Shown here one piece after another: positions 2,734 to 22,473 of a stretch of DNA of 34,717 nucleotides; position 1 is the first letter of the stretch, and each line of letters begins with the position of its first letter. The stretch spans positions 1 to 34,717 of the forward strand of contig JAFQOQ010000032.1 of NCBI GenBank assembly GCA_017403085.1, given 5' to 3'. The notes below the pieces were generated by a model, which saw only the letters and a list, made by a program, of their open reading frames with translations, did no database searches and was not told where the DNA came from. This stretch comes from Alphaproteobacteria bacterium (GTDB lineage Bacteria > Pseudomonadota > Alphaproteobacteria > Rs-D84). The translations under genes were made by a program, and so were the position numbers.

Positions 2734-4008
2734 TTATGACCTTTCTGTTTTATATAGTGTAATTCTGCCACATAACTTATACAAAATAATTTTCATTAGT
2801 CCTAAATATGTGCCAAGCCAATCTATCATGTACAATATTGGGGACAGAAAAATTGGAATAATAGCAGATGATACATTTATTTTGGCAATATGTATTTTAT
2901 TGGTATATGCAACAATCATAATAGATGGTATAATAGTTCGTAGTAATAGAGAGCATATTATAATTGACAATATCGTTGTATCGTTTGCCCACAAAGCAAT
3001 GATTATTATAATAAGATGTGCAAGTCCCTCGTTTAACCATCTAAATGTTTTAAATATTGCATAAATAATAAAGGCTAGATTTTTACAGGTTATATGCTTT
3101 ACACCAATTGCTTTCATAGATTTGTAATCTTTTATGAATAAAGAGGTTCCAAAAAACCAAACAGATAATTGTTTTATCAAAATTGTTAGTCTGGGTGCGC
3201 TGTCTACATTCCCAAAATAAGGTATGATTCTGCTGCTAATATTTGCAAAACTGCATAATCTGCCAAATCGCGTGTCTTCAATTAGAGATGGAAATCCATT
3301 AAATTTTTTTAATACACTGCCACGGATAGTAATACCATTGCCAATAAAATGTCTGATTCTAATAGGGTTAAACAATTGTTCTATCATTGGGATTTCGTAC
3401 GCAATAGAAAAGTAGGTTTGCAACAAAGGAAAACTTTTAACCAATGAAAAATTAGATAATTGGTTAAAATTGCGCAACCAAGCAACAGGTTGCTGATATA
3501 CTTGTATGTTGGGAACAATTTGGTCGTTTATGTTGTGTAAATAGTTTTGTGGCACATCAGAGTCCGCATCCAATAACGCAAAAAATATAGAATCTATATT
3601 TTTATAGTTCCTAATTATATTTTTGTATGCGTAATTTAATTGTTCCGCTTTATATCCTTGTGTATATGGATAATGTATTATATGAAAATTATTTGGCATT
3701 TTTAGTGCGTCAAGAATCTCAATTGTATTTTTACCAACGGCTGGTGTCAATTTTTCGCGTTCAGTTGTTATAAAGTAAATATCATATTTATTAGTGGGGT
3801 ATTTTAGTTTTTTTAATTGGTTGTAAAACCGTAAAATGTTTGTTTCTTCATGATAAACAGGACATAACAAAATAAAACGGTTTTTATATGAATTATGATT
3901 TGTTGTACGTCTGTTTTTTATCAAACGCAGGGCATAATAGTATTTGAACAATAAAAACAATGTGTTTATAAGCAATACAACAGATATGATAAATAGCGTT
4001 GTTTGCAT
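2734..4008 (-). CDS. Membrane GT2 glycosyltransferase (NodC/cellulose-synthase-like)
   Basis: This 424-residue protein has one N-terminal membrane segment (about 4-24), a GT-A catalytic domain and three to four C-terminal membrane segments (about 310-410). Visible GT2 features are CPVYHEE near residue 49 (start of the nucleotide-sugar fold), LLDADSD near 145 (DxD metal site), GNGITIRGS near 225, EDTRFG near 245 (catalytic Asp region) and KQLSVWFFG near 280, a degenerate form of the QxxRW motif of processive synthases. Size and layout match NodC and other family 2 polymerases. The activated sugar and product length cannot be read from sequence. It overlaps the upstream kinase gene by one base (TAATG). 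Confidence 0.85.
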   Translation of the reverse strand: MQTTLFIISVVLLINTLFLLFKYYYALRLIKNRRTTNHNSYKNRFILLCPVYHEETNILRFYNQLKKLKYPTNKYDIYFITTEREKLTPAVGKNTIEILDALKMPNNFHIIHYPYTQGYKAEQLNYAYKNIIRNYKNIDSIFFALLDADSDVPQNYLHNINDQIVPNIQVYQQPVAWLRNFNQLSNFSLVKSFPLLQTYFSIAYEIPMIEQLFNPIRIRHFIGNGITIRGSVLKKFNGFPSLIEDTRFGRLCSFANISSRIIPYFGNVDSAPRLTILIKQLSVWFFGTSLFIKDYKSMKAIGVKHITCKNLAFIIYAIFKTFRWLNEGLAHLIIIIIALWANDTTILSIIICSLLLRTIIPSIMIVAYTNKIHIAKINVSSAIIPIFLSPILYMIDWLGTYLGLMKIILYKLCGRITLYKTERS

Positions 4009-12730: not shown

Positions 12731-15211
12731 ATGGCATTAAAACCTAGGTATAAACGTAGATTTTTTTGGGGTACGCTGTATGCGTTGGGGGCGTTGTTGC
12801 TGGCGATGGTGATTGTGCCACCAATGATAACGCTGAATAGTTTTAGACCATTTCTGGAAAAAGCCATTTTAGAACAAACGCAGGTGCCTGCAAAACTGAA
12901 CGGCAATATTCATTTTAGTTTGGTTGGTGGTGCGACAATTGTTGCGCATGATGTCGAAGTACCAACTGCCAAAATTGGGTCGGTGCTGTTGTCTGTGCCT
13001 TTTCATAATTTGTTCGATTTGAAAAATGCAACGCTGGATAGGACTGTTGTTGTGTATGATGCAGATATTAGTGTCGATAAATTAGCGCCCGCGGCGTTTA
13101 ATCACAATATTGAAATATATGATTCTGATATTGATTTCGCAGGTAATAAATTTCATATAATTAATGCAGAATTCTCGGATGGCAGATTTAATGGAATTAT
13201 TCGGGCGGGCGGTCACAAGTATGATGTCGAATTTATTGGCGATACGTTTCATATCAGAAATAAAAATAATGATATAGATATTACAGGAAAGATGTTCGAA
13301 GATGGTATGGTGCGTGGGTATTTGTCACTGAAAACAGATAATCTTAAAAAGTGGCTGAATATAGACGGGATAGAAGGCGCGTCAGATGGACCAATTGAAT
13401 TGAGTATGAATTTTGAGTGGGATGGGGGTGATGGATATAAATTTACAAATATAAGCGCAAATAATTTTGCAGGCAGTTTAGAAATTTATCCAAATGGGGA
13501 CAAAGATATCCAATTAGTGTCTGAAAACTTAAATTTTGATTTTTCGTTCTTGTTAAAGCCAAATGCGCATCTGACGCGGACGAATATCAATATGGATTTG
13601 TATGGCGAATTGAAATTGGCGGATTATGTGTTTGAACACCTAAAAATTCAAGCGGTTGGTACGCGCGATAAATTTCAAATCGCAAATGTTGTTGCGGATA
13701 ATACAGCGATAACAGGTGGGTTTATTGATAAAAATGGGGCGCATAATGTGCTGATAAATACGCAAATTGATGGAATTAATTTTATGTGTTTGGCGTCTGG
13801 GGTGCCAGATAAATGGCAATGCAGCAAATTTGCCTATGCAGATATGACAGGCAGTTTTTCTGTTGATAATGGTGTGTTTGATATATTTGTGCAATCAGAT
13901 AAAACAATGCCTGATTTGGCACAGTTTTCAGATTTAATTGCAAAATTAGGTCGTCGTGGGGTTATACATTTTGAGTTTTCTGATATGGCCGGACAATATA
14001 AAATAACAGATAATGGTGTGGTGCCGTCTTATACATTTGTGCGCGGTCGGCCAATGCGCTGGTTAAAAATAGGTTTGCCGTTCTTGCCGGATTATATGAA
14101 AAATGCCACGGGTGATTTTGTGTGGGAAAATTCTATGATGACATTTACGCCAAATGATAAAAAATGGCAGTTGTCTATGTATGATAATTATTTCTATTTG
14201 GCGGGGGATAGTTTTAAGTCGTGGTTCCCTAATTTGGATTTGCGTGCGATACGTGATGCAAAGTATAGTGTGGCCGGATTTTATGATGCGGGAAATATTT
14301 CGAATTTAATTGTTAAAATTGGTAATCAAGAATTTGTTGGAAGTGTGGCTGGGAAAAATATAACGCTGAAAACACGAGAATTAAATATAGATGAAATTGT
14401 TAGCCAAGGGTTCTTGGATAATTATGAACAATTAGAATTTTTAACCAATGTTCCAATTCTGATACCGTTTGGGTTGCCGGTGAATGTGTCGCTGGTGGCA
14501 GATGCGTTGGTATATGATGGGGCGGTGTTTAATAATTTTGTGTATTCACTAAAACCAGATGTTCAAACATTTTCTATTACAGATGCCAGTCGTGGAAATC
14601 TGTTGGCAACAATTGAAAAAAATCAAATATCGTATGATGTGTTTATGCAATTGAATAAGTTTGTTATTAGTGGAAATCTGTTGTCACAAAATATGCCACT
14701 GAACGTAAGAGATGCAATGATTACCGCGGAAATGAATATGACAACATCTGGTCAAATTGCGCATGATATATTTTATAACATGGCAGGCGATATGGATATT
14801 GTATTTAATGGTGGGTATTTAATAGGAATGTCGTTTGATGATTTCTATGCCAGTGCTGAAAATATAACAACATTGAATGCGGAATATGCATTGGCGCGCG
14901 CACTGGAAGGCGGTGAAACAAAGATTAAATCTATGCGTGTTGTAGGGTATTATGATGACGGAAACTTTATTACAACCCAGCCGATTGAATTGGCGATGCG
15001 ACATACGGATGCGGTGGGCGGATTGGCGATAACAGATGGTATGATGACTGCGGAATTTGATTTGACAATGCGTGGCACAGCACCAACGCCGGCGACAATC
15101 GCACTTAGTATTTTGCCTGATGGTGGGCGAAACTATTCTTTGTCAGAAATTATGCAGGATATTGATACTGGGTTTATGCGGGCATTTGTTAAAACCCATA
15201 GTCAGTTTTAA
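12731..15211 (+). CDS. AsmA-family inner-membrane-anchored envelope protein
   Basis: This 826-residue protein has a basic N-terminus (KPRYKRRFF), one membrane segment (about 11-33), then a long periplasmic region rich in beta strands. The opening after the anchor (NSFRPFLEKAI, then a short segment on VPAKLNGNIHFS) and the closing AsmA-like C-terminal domain match AsmA/YhdP-type proteins, which are thought to form lipid-carrying bridges or to affect outer-membrane protein and lipid assembly. The ribosome site GGAAAGAGAG precedes the ATG. It overlaps the convergent small gene on the minus strand by 4 bases. The paralogue type (AsmA, TamB, YicH) cannot be settled by eye. Confidence 0.8.
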   Translation: MALKPRYKRRFFWGTLYALGALLLAMVIVPPMITLNSFRPFLEKAILEQTQVPAKLNGNIHFSLVGGATIVAHDVEVPTAKIGSVLLSVPFHNLFDLKNATLDRTVVVYDADISVDKLAPAAFNHNIEIYDSDIDFAGNKFHIINAEFSDGRFNGIIRAGGHKYDVEFIGDTFHIRNKNNDIDITGKMFEDGMVRGYLSLKTDNLKKWLNIDGIEGASDGPIELSMNFEWDGGDGYKFTNISANNFAGSLEIYPNGDKDIQLVSENLNFDFSFLLKPNAHLTRTNINMDLYGELKLADYVFEHLKIQAVGTRDKFQIANVVADNTAITGGFIDKNGAHNVLINTQIDGINFMCLASGVPDKWQCSKFAYADMTGSFSVDNGVFDIFVQSDKTMPDLAQFSDLIAKLGRRGVIHFEFSDMAGQYKITDNGVVPSYTFVRGRPMRWLKIGLPFLPDYMKNATGDFVWENSMMTFTPNDKKWQLSMYDNYFYLAGDSFKSWFPNLDLRAIRDAKYSVAGFYDAGNISNLIVKIGNQEFVGSVAGKNITLKTRELNIDEIVSQGFLDNYEQLEFLTNVPILIPFGLPVNVSLVADALVYDGAVFNNFVYSLKPDVQTFSITDASRGNLLATIEKNQISYDVFMQLNKFVISGNLLSQNMPLNVRDAMITAEMNMTTSGQIAHDIFYNMAGDMDIVFNGGYLIGMSFDDFYASAENITTLNAEYALARALEGGETKIKSMRVVGYYDDGNFITTQPIELAMRHTDAVGGLAITDGMMTAEFDLTMRGTAPTPATIALSILPDGGRNYSLSEIMQDIDTGFMRAFVKTHSQF

Positions 15212-17790: not shown

Positions 17791-17822
17791 AAATAAATCC
17801 AGTTTTATCTGGATTTATTTTT
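17791..17822. terminator. Terminator overlapping the ftsA-rpe stop codon
   Basis: AAATAAATCCAG (17791-17802) pairs perfectly with CTGGATTTATTT (17809-17820) around TTTTAT, with a T run on either strand. The stop codon of the fusion gene (17817-17815) lies inside the stem. Confidence 0.85.
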
Positions 17823-19599
17823 GTTCATGGGCTTTTTTTAACAGGCTTTGTACCGCCAATGGAAAATCGTTTGATTTGGCCAGGTATGATCCGCTGACCA
17901 ATAAATCTGCGCCGGCATCCCAACATGGTTGGGCCGTTTTGTCGTTTATGCCACCATCAACAGATATGACAAATTTTAGACCGTACTTTTTACGGGTGCC
18001 TGCCAAAATGGATATCTTGTGCAGGGTTGCAGGATTAAACTGTTGGCCGGCGGCGCCAGGGGTGACGGACATTACCATAACTTCGTCTATGTCGCGTAAA
18101 ATTGGCTTTAATATACTGACAGATGAATCTGGGTGCAGTGCAACACCAACACGACGGCCGGCGTTTTTGACAACACGTATCGCGGCACGCAGTCCAGATG
18201 TGTTGGTTGATAATATTATCGTGTCAGCCCCAGCCGCAATTGCGTCAGATGCCCAGACGGCCGGACTTTCTGTCATTAGATGTACGTGCAGGTGTGCGTT
18301 TGTGTGCGAACGAATAAGTTTTAATTCATCAATACTGCCGGCGATTCTATCAACATAAAAGCCGTCCATTATATCGACGTGTATCATAGATATGTTGGCG
18401 GAATTAAATAATGTGTATGTATCGCCACGCTTCATATTAAAACATAATGTGCTGGGTAATATTGGAACAAAGTGTGCGCGTTTTTTCTTTTTGCGACGAA
18501 AGATTTTTTTTATCCAACCAGAACGACGGGCCCAACGGTCTTGGCGGGCAAGGTATGCGTCGCGATGTGGGCGTTCGCATTCCCAAATGTATTGTGACAG
18601 GGCGCGTACCGTCGCATCAGGGGGCAAGACTTCGGTCACGATGGCAAATGCGTTTTCGATAAAATCACGCAGGCCTTCGACATCGGCACCGCCGCCAGAC
18701 ATGATGATTTTTGTCGGATGATATTTTGTAAATGATGGCAGACATCTGTCCTTAATCTGGCCAATAATATCGACGATAATTGGTATTATTATGTCATTAA
18801 CGTCGCCACGTGAAAAATCATATGCGGTATCCGCGGGGGTAAAACGGTTCATTTCTTTGGGTATCAGTGATGCGACGTTGTGTTTGATTCTGTCCGCTTC
18901 GTAAATATCGATGTTTAATTGTGATGCGATGGCGTTCGTTATGTCTGTGCCACCAAGTTTGATTTTTGTGTGCCAGACCGGACCACGGTCGGTCCATATG
19001 GATGCGGATGTATATTCTGCGCCAAAGTCTAAGAATAATGTTGTTTGTCGCGCCGTGCGATAGGCCGAGTTCTGTAAAAAGTGTGGGTCGAAAAATCCGT
19101 CAGACTGAATGTGGGCGGCCCGCAGATGTTCATAAATATTACTTAACCCAGGTTGTGAATAATATATTATGCCAAATGCAGATATTAATTGGCGGTCAAT
19201 GTGGCCAATTGGGGTGCGCATATTGCGCGCCGTGGGTGTGTCATAACGCAATGGAATAATATGCATTGGAAAATAATCGTCTGGGGCCGTAATCTGAGAT
19301 GTTTGGGCGCGAATATCAGATGCCGTGATTTTGTGTTCGCCGCCCCATGCAGTGCTTTTGGCAAGCATTTCAAATTCAGATGGCCCAAGATTCCCAGTAA
19401 TGTACGCAGAATCAAAATGGGTTCCGATTTGTTTTTCTAGTTCGTCAATGACAGATTTCAGTCCGTATGATGCGTCATTTGTATCAATTGAATAAATTGC
19501 AGAATTATTGATTTTCCCACTGCGGATGCGGTGGGCGATGCCACGTACGCAATGCGTGCCAATGTCTAGGCATAGAAAAGAAGAATCAAGTAAGTTCAT
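17815..19599 (-). CDS. ftsA-rpe: FtsA fused to ribulose-phosphate 3-epimerase
   Basis: This single 594-residue frame contains two whole proteins. Residues 1-357 are FtsA, the actin-like anchor of the Z ring: LDIGT at 11-15, LDFGAEYTS near 190, LGGTDIT near 216 and SGGGADVEGL at 301-310. Residues 358-373 (RRSGWIKKIFRRKKKK) resemble the amphipathic membrane helix that normally ends FtsA. Residues about 377-594 are ribulose-phosphate 3-epimerase, which interconverts ribulose- and xylulose-5-phosphate. They keep PS (Ser383), IHVDIMDG (His407, Asp409), HVHLM (His440), SVTPG and SVDGG (Asp548). No in-frame start codon lies before the catalytic Ser, so the epimerase cannot be made alone. The gene follows ftsQ by 6 bases, without its own ribosome site. 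Confidence 0.9.
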   Translation of the reverse strand: MNLLDSSFLCLDIGTHCVRGIAHRIRSGKINNSAIYSIDTNDASYGLKSVIDELEKQIGTHFDSAYITGNLGPSEFEMLAKSTAWGGEHKITASDIRAQTSQITAPDDYFPMHIIPLRYDTPTARNMRTPIGHIDRQLISAFGIIYYSQPGLSNIYEHLRAAHIQSDGFFDPHFLQNSAYRTARQTTLFLDFGAEYTSASIWTDRGPVWHTKIKLGGTDITNAIASQLNIDIYEADRIKHNVASLIPKEMNRFTPADTAYDFSRGDVNDIIIPIIVDIIGQIKDRCLPSFTKYHPTKIIMSGGGADVEGLRDFIENAFAIVTEVLPPDATVRALSQYIWECERPHRDAYLARQDRWARRSGWIKKIFRRKKKKRAHFVPILPSTLCFNMKRGDTYTLFNSANISMIHVDIMDGFYVDRIAGSIDELKLIRSHTNAHLHVHLMTESPAVWASDAIAAGADTIILSTNTSGLRAAIRVVKNAGRRVGVALHPDSSVSILKPILRDIDEVMVMSVTPGAAGQQFNPATLHKISILAGTRKKYGLKFVISVDGGINDKTAQPCWDAGADLLVSGSYLAKSNDFPLAVQSLLKKAHEQK

Positions 19600-19605
19600 C
19601 GCGTT

Positions 19606-20286
19606 TTATTTTACCAATGTGCGTGTTGGGTCGCGCATATCAATAAGGGTTATGTTCTTGGTTAAAATGCCATGGTTGCGATTTAAGGTCATCAATGTGC
19701 CAATCGCAGATATAGGGTCGTTTTCAGGTAACATAATAGTTATGCCGCCCAGTGTGTGCAGATTCCAACGTCTGTTTTCAATCCATTCAAGATAGTCCAG
19801 GTCCTGGACCAGGTTATGTGCAACCTTGGTTATATCGGATATGTCGTTTGGTAATGTGCCACGAAATACAACATTACCTTCGTCGCGGGTGTCGGTTGGA
19901 CTATTCACAATTGTGCCGTCCGCAGATAATGGAAAGAATTTTTCGCCATCAGTCCATAAGGCAACGGCGCGGTATAATGATACCTTGATTGCAAGGTTGC
20001 CGTTCGGCAGGCGGCGTACCGCAGATTTATTTACACCGGCAACATCATCAATGCGGGCGTTTAATGCAGATAAGTTTAAAGAGTATGCACGTGTTTTTGG
20101 GGCAACTGATGCCGCCGCTGCAATTGCAGACAGGTCTTTGTCGCGAATGTCTGCGGATATAGATATGTTTCGAACTATCGATATTTTGGTGCGGCCCATG
20201 CCAGTCATAATAGTGCGGGTTGCAAAATATACCGCCAATATAATTGCCAGAATAAAATACAACCAAAACCAGATAGAACGTTTCAT
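19606..20286 (-). CDS. ftsQ: Cell division protein FtsQ
   Basis: This 226-residue bitopic protein has a short basic cytoplasmic start, a membrane segment at about 5-24, a POTRA-like region (about 36-105, with SLNLSALNARIDDVAGV) and the beta domain typical of FtsQ (VALWTDGEKFFPLSADGTIV, then LHTLGGITIMLPEND). It links FtsA/FtsZ on the inside to FtsB, FtsL and FtsW/I in the periplasm. It is placed directly before ftsA, as in the dcw cluster, but the rest of that cluster (mur genes, ftsZ) is absent here. The promoter places transcription start next to the ATG, so translation may be leaderless. Confidence 0.88.
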   Translation of the reverse strand: MKRSIWFWLYFILAIILAVYFATRTIMTGMGRTKISIVRNISISADIRDKDLSAIAAAASVAPKTRAYSLNLSALNARIDDVAGVNKSAVRRLPNGNLAIKVSLYRAVALWTDGEKFFPLSADGTIVNSPTDTRDEGNVVFRGTLPNDISDITKVAHNLVQDLDYLEWIENRRWNLHTLGGITIMLPENDPISAIGTLMTLNRNHGILTKNITLIDMRDPTRTLVK

Positions 20287-20331: not shown

Positions 20332-20718
20332 TTACATTGCGCGCAATAAATATCCGCGACGGAACATGCATCTGCGATATGCACCGACCGATTTAGATGT
20401 GGTGTTGCGTGGAACAGACATCAGGCTGCGTTGGCCAACGTCACGATATTCGTTTGATTGAAATGTTACCCACAGGCCGTCCCAATCAGGCATTTGGCCA
20501 CTTTGATTTGGGGCCAATAATTTTGATATGCGGGAACGTGGCTGGTGTGCGGGGCGGGTAATGCCCAGACAGGCCTTGTGATCGCGTACAAATTGTTCGG
20601 TGGTGACGGATTCATTTTCCCAGTTTAATACCGTGGCGTTGTCAATGTTTCCGCGATTTACGGATGCACATGACGCCAATGCGAGGGCTAAAAAAATGGG
20701 TAATATTTTTATTCTCAT
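20332..20718 (-). CDS. Small lipoprotein
   Basis: This 128-residue protein has a lipoprotein signal (MRIKILPIFLALALASC, lipobox ALAS/C) and a mature part with two further cysteines (KACLG and RRCMFRRGYL), which could form a disulfide. The C-terminal pattern, an aromatic-rich centre followed by YRRCMFRRGY, is common in small proteobacterial lipoproteins of unknown role, where the second cysteine lies in a CM..RGY-type motif. It ends 45 bases before the ftsQ start. The same leaderless promoter layout as ftsQ precedes it. No function is assigned. Confidence 0.82.
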   Translation of the reverse strand: MRIKILPIFLALALASCASVNRGNIDNATVLNWENESVTTEQFVRDHKACLGITRPAHQPRSRISKLLAPNQSGQMPDWDGLWVTFQSNEYRDVGQRSLMSVPRNTTSKSVGAYRRCMFRRGYLLRAM

Positions 20719-21144: not shown

Positions 21145-22473
21145 ATGCTGCGTTTGAAAAGTTGGCTGATTGGGGTTGTGGGTATTGCTGCGCTGGTTGG
21201 GTGTGTGCAGCGGCCGGATGTAAATGGTATGCTTTATGACAATGTGACAGTTGTTGATCAATTGGTGATTGACGAGAATTCAGTGCCAATCTTTCCAAAA
21301 AAAGCCGCTTTGACCACAGATACAGCGCGCAGGTTTTCTATAGAATTGCCAAAACGGTGCGAGGTTGATTGGAATAATCAAAGTGTTGTGTCAGTTGTCC
21401 CAGCCGAGAAAGTGGAAATTGTGCGTCTGGGGGTGGGGGATGCGTTGCCTGAATTAAATGTGTCTGATTATGAATTTAAAGATTTAACGGTTAAGCAGGC
21501 GTTGGATAAACTGTTAGACGGTACAGATATTGCAGTTGTTGAAGACGAGGCCTTGTACGAAAAAATTTCCGGTACGATTTCGGCGGGGGGGCTGGAAGAT
21601 GCGGTTGAATTGATGACTAAGATGGGGCGTGTGTATTATTCGTATGATGACACGTTGGGGGAATTGCATTTAACACATCGGGCAAAGTGGCTGATAAAGA
21701 TGCCAAAGGATGAAACCATTATTATGGCTTTATTGGATGCGATGCATGGCGCGGATATGCGAAACCTGCTGGTGAATTGGCGGGATAAGACGGTTGTGTT
21801 CGAAGGAAACTATCAGACAGAACGTGAAGTGGCCAAGATTATCGCAGATATGTCCGGGAAAAAGTATATGATTGCGTGGGATATTGATGTGTATCGTGTG
21901 TATCCGCGTACAGATAATCCGATTGTTTGGATGAATTTATTGCCGGCGTTTGGTGAAGAAAATGTGCGTATGTCAATCCCAGGGGTTGTTGGGCGTGCAT
22001 TGGTTGTTAGTCCGGAAATAAATACTAAAACGTTGCAAGAATTCTTGGGGCAACAGGCAAATGTGGTTTTGATATCGCAGGGTACGTTTGCAATTCCAAA
22101 TGGATGGCAGTCGCGATTTGATATCGGACAATGTGGTAAAGAAGAACGTTTGGAAACTGATTTGATTATCGGTGCGACGGGAAAATATGGTGATTTTGGT
22201 GGGACTAATAAAATTGATGCGAAAATCGTTCTGCGTACAAGTAATGGTGAATTGAGTTCTTTTAATATCCCGTCGTCTGTTGGGGATAATTATGTAATAA
22301 TTGGGATTCCAACACATTCGTTTGTGACAACGCCAGAAACACTGGTTAGTCCGTTTGCAGAACTGGTTGTGTTTATGTCGCCGCGGGTTATTTCAATTGT
22401 AGATGGTGCAGGTGAAATTCAAGATGCAAATGAATTGATTGGTGATGCATTGCGTGATTTTTTGAGTGAATAA
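21145..22473 (+). CDS. Secretin-like lipoprotein
   Basis: This 442-residue precursor has a lipoprotein signal ending LVGC (about residue 20). A secretin/TonB short N-terminal-like region follows (SDYEFKDLTVKQALDKLLDG, near 110-130), then a central domain, and a C-terminal beta region ending ELVVFMSPRVIS, which resembles the closing strand of secretins. Secretins form outer-membrane channels of type II secretion and type IV pili; PilN/BfpB types are lipoproteins. The protein is short for a full secretin, so it may be a reduced or specialised form. The ribosome site AAGGAG is strong. The neighbouring Lol genes would deliver it to the outer membrane. Confidence 0.65.
   Translation: MLRLKSWLIGVVGIAALVGCVQRPDVNGMLYDNVTVVDQLVIDENSVPIFPKKAALTTDTARRFSIELPKRCEVDWNNQSVVSVVPAEKVEIVRLGVGDALPELNVSDYEFKDLTVKQALDKLLDGTDIAVVEDEALYEKISGTISAGGLEDAVELMTKMGRVYYSYDDTLGELHLTHRAKWLIKMPKDETIIMALLDAMHGADMRNLLVNWRDKTVVFEGNYQTEREVAKIIADMSGKKYMIAWDIDVYRVYPRTDNPIVWMNLLPAFGEENVRMSIPGVVGRALVVSPEINTKTLQEFLGQQANVVLISQGTFAIPNGWQSRFDIGQCGKEERLETDLIIGATGKYGDFGGTNKIDAKIVLRTSNGELSSFNIPSSVGDNYVIIGIPTHSFVTTPETLVSPFAELVVFMSPRVISIVDGAGEIQDANELIGDALRDFLSE

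Follow-up and report, generated by a model that had tools for sequence, protein, structure and literature searches.

A fused FtsA and ribulose-phosphate 3-epimerase gene in Rs-D84, an alphaproteobacterial family without detectable FtsZ

FtsZ is the near-universal builder of the bacterial division ring, with FtsA as its membrane anchor and helper. The best-studied case of bacteria without FtsZ is Chlamydia, for which MreB-based division has been proposed. The bacteria described here resemble Chlamydia in lacking FtsZ, in having a reduced genome and in keeping FtsK and MreB, but there is no FtsA in Chlamydia (PMC10591338), whereas FtsA and FtsQ are kept here. In E. coli, FtsA forms membrane filaments upon FtsN binding, and work on such filaments asks which functions truly require FtsZ (PMC7613929). 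Ribulose-phosphate 3-epimerase (Rpe) is usually a free soluble enzyme. Its gene lies near a division gene, damX, in E. coli (damX-dam-rpe), but there the genes are separate, with no fusion, and the division protein is unrelated.

The gene described here joins the two proteins. It was found in a metagenome-assembled genome, and the window analysed is the whole of one contig (C32) of that bin (G000), with a length of 34,717 nucleotides. In GTDB both the order and the family are named Rs-D84, and genome reduction is general in the order, with incomplete glycolysis and a non-oxidative branch of the pentose phosphate pathway that lacks transaldolase (PMC12306168). The NCBI taxonomy places the genus Enterousia in the Alphaproteobacteria as incertae sedis. 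Named relatives of the fusion come mainly from animal gut metagenomes, several Candidatus Enterousia species being among them. A closed chromosome of 1,001,484 bp, taken as that of Ca. Enterousia intestinigallinarum (OX097180.1) and read in overlapping stretches, served for comparison.

The fusion gene and its two halves

A sequence-only reading of the window had proposed FtsA and Rpe in one uninterrupted frame with a junction near 18470. The frame was recovered with exactly the extent given in Table 1, on the minus strand (no strand had been given earlier), and the junction was located at 18471/18472. Pfam matches to both proteins fall in this single frame, FtsA (PF14450) at residues 190-324 with 39.7 bits against a cut-off of 31.8 and Ribul_P_3_epim (PF00834) at residues 390-573 with 141.3 bits against a cut-off of 21.1. 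The corresponding protein of the closed genome scores 53.7 bits against Pfam FtsA. A homolog of ftsQ is present at the fusion locus in 80 of 80 relatives and, in those listed, stops just short of the fusion; the two genes likely form part of the same operon. The protein encoded upstream of ftsQ has no match in Pfam or NCBIfam and is tied to the fusion by position alone. Two plus-strand genes of the window, at 12731-15211 and 21145-22473, code for proteins of 826 and 442 aa with no Pfam match, both conserved close to the fusion on the closed chromosome as well.

Table 1. Features of the fusion locus (positions in the window)
Feature	Position	Strand	Basis and remarks
ftsA-rpe fusion gene	17815-19599	minus	594 aa, ATG start; open frame and Pfam matches
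FtsA domain, residues 1-342	18574-19599	minus	PF14450; actin-like fold with FtsA-type 1C subdomain
Long amphipathic helix, residues 343-367, predicted counterpart of the FtsA C-terminal membrane helix	18499-18573	minus	AlphaFold2 and conservation
Lys/Arg-rich linker, residues 368-376	18472-18498	minus	Net charge
Ribulose-phosphate 3-epimerase domain, residues 377-594, plus stop	17815-18471	minus	PF00834, NF004076, fold
ftsQ	19606-20286	minus	PF03799, 31.8 bits; 6 nt gap upstream of the fusion
Conserved protein (128 aa) upstream of ftsQ, with a lipoprotein-like signal peptide	20332-20718	minus	

Like the FtsA proteins of E. coli, T. maritima and V. maritimus, the N-terminal half is encoded after ftsQ and possesses an actin-like fold with subdomain 1C, the nucleotide-site residues and a helix following the actin domain. 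Its model has the four subdomains expected of such a fold and aligns with V. maritimus FtsA (7q6f) with a Z of 32.6 and an rmsd of 3.0 over 333 residues (of 382; VIA-align), against a Z of 24.9 for PilM and about 21 for MreB, being thus nearer to FtsA structures, the double-filament ones included, than to either of the latter. Residues D12, G14, D191, G302 and G303 of the nucleotide site are identical in all 93 distinct fusion proteins of the comparison set (pairwise identity 44-98%). It differs from known FtsA in belonging to a cell without FtsZ, in having its helix internal rather than C-terminal and preceded by about 342 aa, and in carrying an enzyme. With the NCBIfam ftsA equivalog (TIGR01174), seven family members score 67-88 bits, below the cut-off of 175.85, which suggests that the role of this half may have changed; the FtsA proteins tested from sister families score 162-280 bits. 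In comparison to E. coli FtsA, this half has lost 11 residues from 1A, 7 and 8 around 2B and 14 close to the end of 2A, with subdomains assigned according to the general FtsA fold. These losses and the low score would fit a release from FtsZ binding; they need not mean a new role. An Arg at position 300 of E. coli FtsA was considered as a marker of FtsZ loss and discarded, as FtsA of one sister family (f4) also lacks it yet occurs with FtsZ. A literature search for FtsA-FtsZ contact residues found no paper.

The AlphaFold2 model of the whole fusion, built with 75 aligned sequences, has a mean pLDDT of 94.8 and a pTM of 0.64, values which fit two sound domains about a hinge, their mutual position being uncertain. 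Just ahead of the epimerase it shows a single long helix, whose counterpart in alignments is the amphipathic helix at the end of sister FtsA proteins. The FtsA tail had been said to persist as a linker at residues 358-373; it is indeed retained, but is longer, spanning 343-367. Hydrophobic residues occupy positions 349, 356, 363, 366 and 367 in 89-98% of the 93 relatives and basic residues positions 346, 352 and 355 in 82-98%, while the median net charge of residues 360-376 is +7. The mean maximal hydrophobic moment of the helix is 0.64 as opposed to 0.50 for shuffled sequences and is individually unusual in only 20 of the 93, so that its amphipathicity appears only moderate. Homology with the FtsA tail suggests membrane binding, though a coiled coil would be compatible with such a pattern too. 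It had also been stated that no start codon could release the epimerase alone. This holds for the window, with no in-frame ATG, GTG or TTG between residues 342 and 383. Of the 93 relatives, 58 have an in-frame ATG in this interval, but a Shine-Dalgarno-like stretch precedes only three ATG or GTG codons in total.

The C-terminal half shares with Rpe its barrel, metal ligands, catalytic aspartates and phosphate-site glycines, and its model superimposes on 2fli with a Z of 33.0 and an rmsd of 1.4 over 213 residues at 34% identity (VIA-align). The catalytic residues named in the earlier reading (S383, H407, D409, H440 and D548) are all present and are identical in the 93 distinct relatives, as are M411 and M442. 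It departs from Rpe in forming the C-terminal domain of a predicted membrane-helix protein and in having the loop PGAAGQ in place of PGFGGQ. The protein scores 175.8 bits with NF004076 (cut-off 165) and 148.1 bits with the rpe equivalog TIGR01163, below its cut-off of 212.6, of which a free enzyme from a sister family also falls short (L143, 161.2 bits). This half is thus a divergent member of the family, with ribulose-5-phosphate as its putative substrate. By fold and gene position, the fusion is an FtsA and an Rpe.

Distribution and origin of the fusion

The fusion spans all 13 genera of Rs-D84, the GTDB family to which Ca. Enterousia belongs, with a PF00834 match in 172 of 183 genomes and in 114 of the 115 of good quality. 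Among the matches listed, the frames are open over about 577-633 aa except in one genome, where it lies near a contig end (G160), and in six free paralogs of 223-228 aa; no re-splitting into two genes was seen among these matches from 13 genera. FtsA was present in all 41 genomes of the family in the order sample. A second FtsA was looked for, but in genomes of the family PF14450 matches nothing beyond the fusion and an MreB-sized protein, apart from one extra fusion copy in a mixed bin.

That bin is the source of the window, where an artefact of assembly or frame had to be considered. It contains two Enterousia species, with two copies each of UvrB (88% identity between them) and of the fusion (73% identity; contigs C5 and C32), and the fusion on C5 is 94% identical to the protein of another species. 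However, the same open frame is shared by independent genomes, the closed chromosome included. Its recurrence in 13 genera far exceeds what chance would give, and these unbroken frames refute an artefact, which is hardly conceivable. Two findings had been named as ones that would overturn the fusion, a frame error at the junction and separate ftsA and rpe genes in relatives; the former is absent and the latter fails, the fusion being fixed within Rs-D84. The fusion is genuine and old. A literature search for FtsA, ribulose-phosphate 3-epimerase and fusion found no paper, subscription journals being thinly covered.

Across 19 close pairs, dN/dS is approximately 0.03-0.09 in the FtsA half and in the Rpe half, and it is higher only in the linker, at up to 0.33, so that this is where constraint is weakest. 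Together with the invariant residues, these low values indicate that both halves are maintained, and as judged from substitution rates both are under strong purifying selection.

Elsewhere in the order (families f2-f6), ftsA and rpe stand as two genes wherever both were found. The stop codon of ftsA shares bases with the start codon of rpe in f3 (L143, TAATG) and f6 (L144, TAATG; L145, ATGA), while in f2 (L142) rpe probably starts at the ATG at 3361, 18 nt past the ftsA stop. FtsA proteins of f2, f3 and f6 end in an amphipathic stretch, for example KVKNWIKEHL. In f4 (L148-L151) an ABC-transporter-like gene of about 590 aa lies between the two genes. An 891-aa frame with Rpe in G196 was examined as another fusion and found to be a spurious frame overlapping the neighbouring ABC-transporter-like gene. 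Rs-D84 is monophyletic (100/100) on a UvrB tree, which leaves out f5 as it has no UvrB match. Linked but separate genes in the sister families and a single Rs-D84 clade point to one event, and most simply the fusion would have arisen once, at the base of Rs-D84, when the ftsA stop of the coupled pair was lost.

FtsZ, the remaining divisome and pentose metabolism

No FtsZ was detected with PF00091 in any of the 183 Rs-D84 genomes, whereas it was found in 17 of 18 genomes from elsewhere in the order and, among sampled Pseudomonadota (all at least 92% complete), in 392 of 397. The five exceptions among the latter comprise two Rs-D84 genomes and three others (G458, G552 and G533), and a recognizable FtsA occurs only in the two from Rs-D84: PF14450 matches nothing in G458 or G552, while G533 (93% complete, 8% contaminated) has one MreB-sized match of 350 aa and two below the cut-off. 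In the closed chromosome, FtsZ was not found using E. coli FtsZ, sister FtsZ proteins or an HMM built from these. That a divergent FtsZ was overlooked was rejected as far as possible, as the sister-FtsZ HMM at maximum sensitivity gave a best E-value of 0.25 for a 42-aa fragment. FtsZ was lost on the same branch on which the fusion arose. As a side observation, one genome of f5 (G186; 0.7 Mb, 93% complete) has no FtsZ or Rpe match, and the FtsA model matches only an MreB-sized protein in it.

The earlier reading had started from an FtsA that tethers FtsZ and would carry the epimerase to the division ring or the membrane, as a metabolic input to division or as a neutral fusion. The FtsZ part of this does not survive, for with no FtsZ found in the source genome or in any of the 183 family genomes there is no Z-ring to which the epimerase could be carried and the FtsA half cannot be its anchor.

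Besides the fusion, the closed chromosome keeps FtsQ, FtsK, two FtsW/RodA proteins, FtsI, PBP2, MreB, MreC, MraY and MurG. Searches of it with E. coli queries did not find FtsL, ZapA, MinC or MinE, this being a weak test for FtsL, which is short and fast-changing. Mur ligases (PF08245, MurC-F) were not found in the sampled Enterousia genomes, of which the closed one retains MraY, MurG, FtsW and FtsI. A genome from another genus of the family (G178) has four Mur-ligase matches and is still without FtsZ.

Transketolase (tkt) and rpiB were found in the closed chromosome, while E. coli queries recovered no prs (ribose-phosphate diphosphokinase), transaldolase or rpiA. The fused Rpe is usually the only epimerase of the cell. 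A second, free rpe in relatives had been raised as a possibility; most genomes have none, and a few have a distinct PF00834 paralog. These paralogs (217-225 aa), present in six genomes of the genus (L003, L005, L006, L010, L011 and L013) and in one of f4 (L131), adjoin a phosphomannose-isomerase-like gene in a sugar cluster, and as distinct sugar-cluster genes they were ruled out as orthologs of the fused Rpe.

Possible roles of the fused protein

The explanation we favour, and consider probable, is a bifunctional membrane-tethered protein whose fixation dates back to the Rs-D84 ancestor, with an FtsA half that works without FtsZ and an Rpe half that is an active epimerase. Its gene history, the FtsZ loss and the selection are read from sequence, and from these we infer the function of both halves. 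The ftsA and rpe genes, neighbouring and overlapping in sister families, became one frame through loss of the ftsA stop, which turned the amphipathic FtsA helix into an internal hinge. The FtsA half would still bind ATP, be held on the membrane by helix 343-367 and the basic linker, and form a membrane-bound actin-like filament as E. coli FtsA does with FtsN. Together with FtsQ, FtsK and FtsW-FtsI, such a filament would organize septal wall synthesis from the cytoplasm without FtsZ, a task possibly shared with MreB, and FtsA may act on FtsW-FtsI directly. The Rpe half would exchange Ru5P and Xu5P beside transketolase and RpiB, and its tethering may reflect its origin instead of a shown need.

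Accidental joining in a shrinking genome, after which the halves keep their old jobs and the attachment means nothing functionally, is quite possible, though somewhat short of an even chance. It is compatible with FtsA acting without FtsZ and denies only that the joining matters. The adjacent, overlapping genes of the sister families would ease accidental read-through, the linker is poorly constrained and genome reduction is general in the order (PMC12306168). Yet the fusion is unbroken across 13 genera, with no re-split among the matches listed, and accident alone fails to explain the loss of FtsZ on the same branch. It is rather unlikely that the FtsA half has left division to MreB and now serves, for example, as an anchor or filament for elongation or for an epimerase-centred metabolic assembly. 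The presence of MreB, MreC, RodA and PBP2, the loops lost in or near subdomain 2B among others and the score below the ftsA equivalog cut-off would agree with this, as would the finding that tabulated intracellular bacteria either retain both FtsZ and FtsA or lack both (PMC10591338), so that FtsA alone suggests a new job. The position of ftsQ directly upstream at 80 of 80 loci speaks against it, and a second pair of FtsW-like and FtsI-like proteins besides RodA and PBP2 argues for a working divisome. Against the explanation that we favour, MreB could also do the work of division alone, as proposed for Chlamydia. The low ftsA equivalog score and the moderate amphipathicity of the helix count against it too, and with FtsL not found by the E. 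coli query the link from FtsA to FtsW-FtsI is a putative one.

Two further proposals give the epimerase a part in division. Epimerases of this kind generally form oligomers, and 2fli, the closest solved relative of the Rpe half, holds many chains. An oligomeric epimerase might cluster FtsA on the membrane in place of FtsZ filaments, so that a sugar enzyme would help to build the divisome and division would depend on FtsA alone, but this we regard as unlikely. It is less likely still that the epimerase senses pentose-phosphate flux and controls FtsA, and with it division, through the shared chain. The epimerase active site is invariant and changes in central carbon metabolism, including deletions of rpe and tktA, alter cell size in E. 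coli (PMC5825171), but no sequence feature indicates communication between the halves, and the pTM of 0.64 with its high pLDDT fits two hinged domains.

There is a real chance that the favoured explanation, an FtsA half acting without FtsZ beside an active epimerase, describes a new kind of division system. At least 183 species with FtsA, FtsQ and FtsW-FtsI, and without FtsZ, would constitute a natural experiment on FtsA-only division, and the fixed joining of FtsA to a pentose-phosphate enzyme would allow a physical coupling of metabolism to division to be tested cleanly. These gut bacteria with tiny genomes may divide by means of an FtsA-based machine that resembles none described so far.
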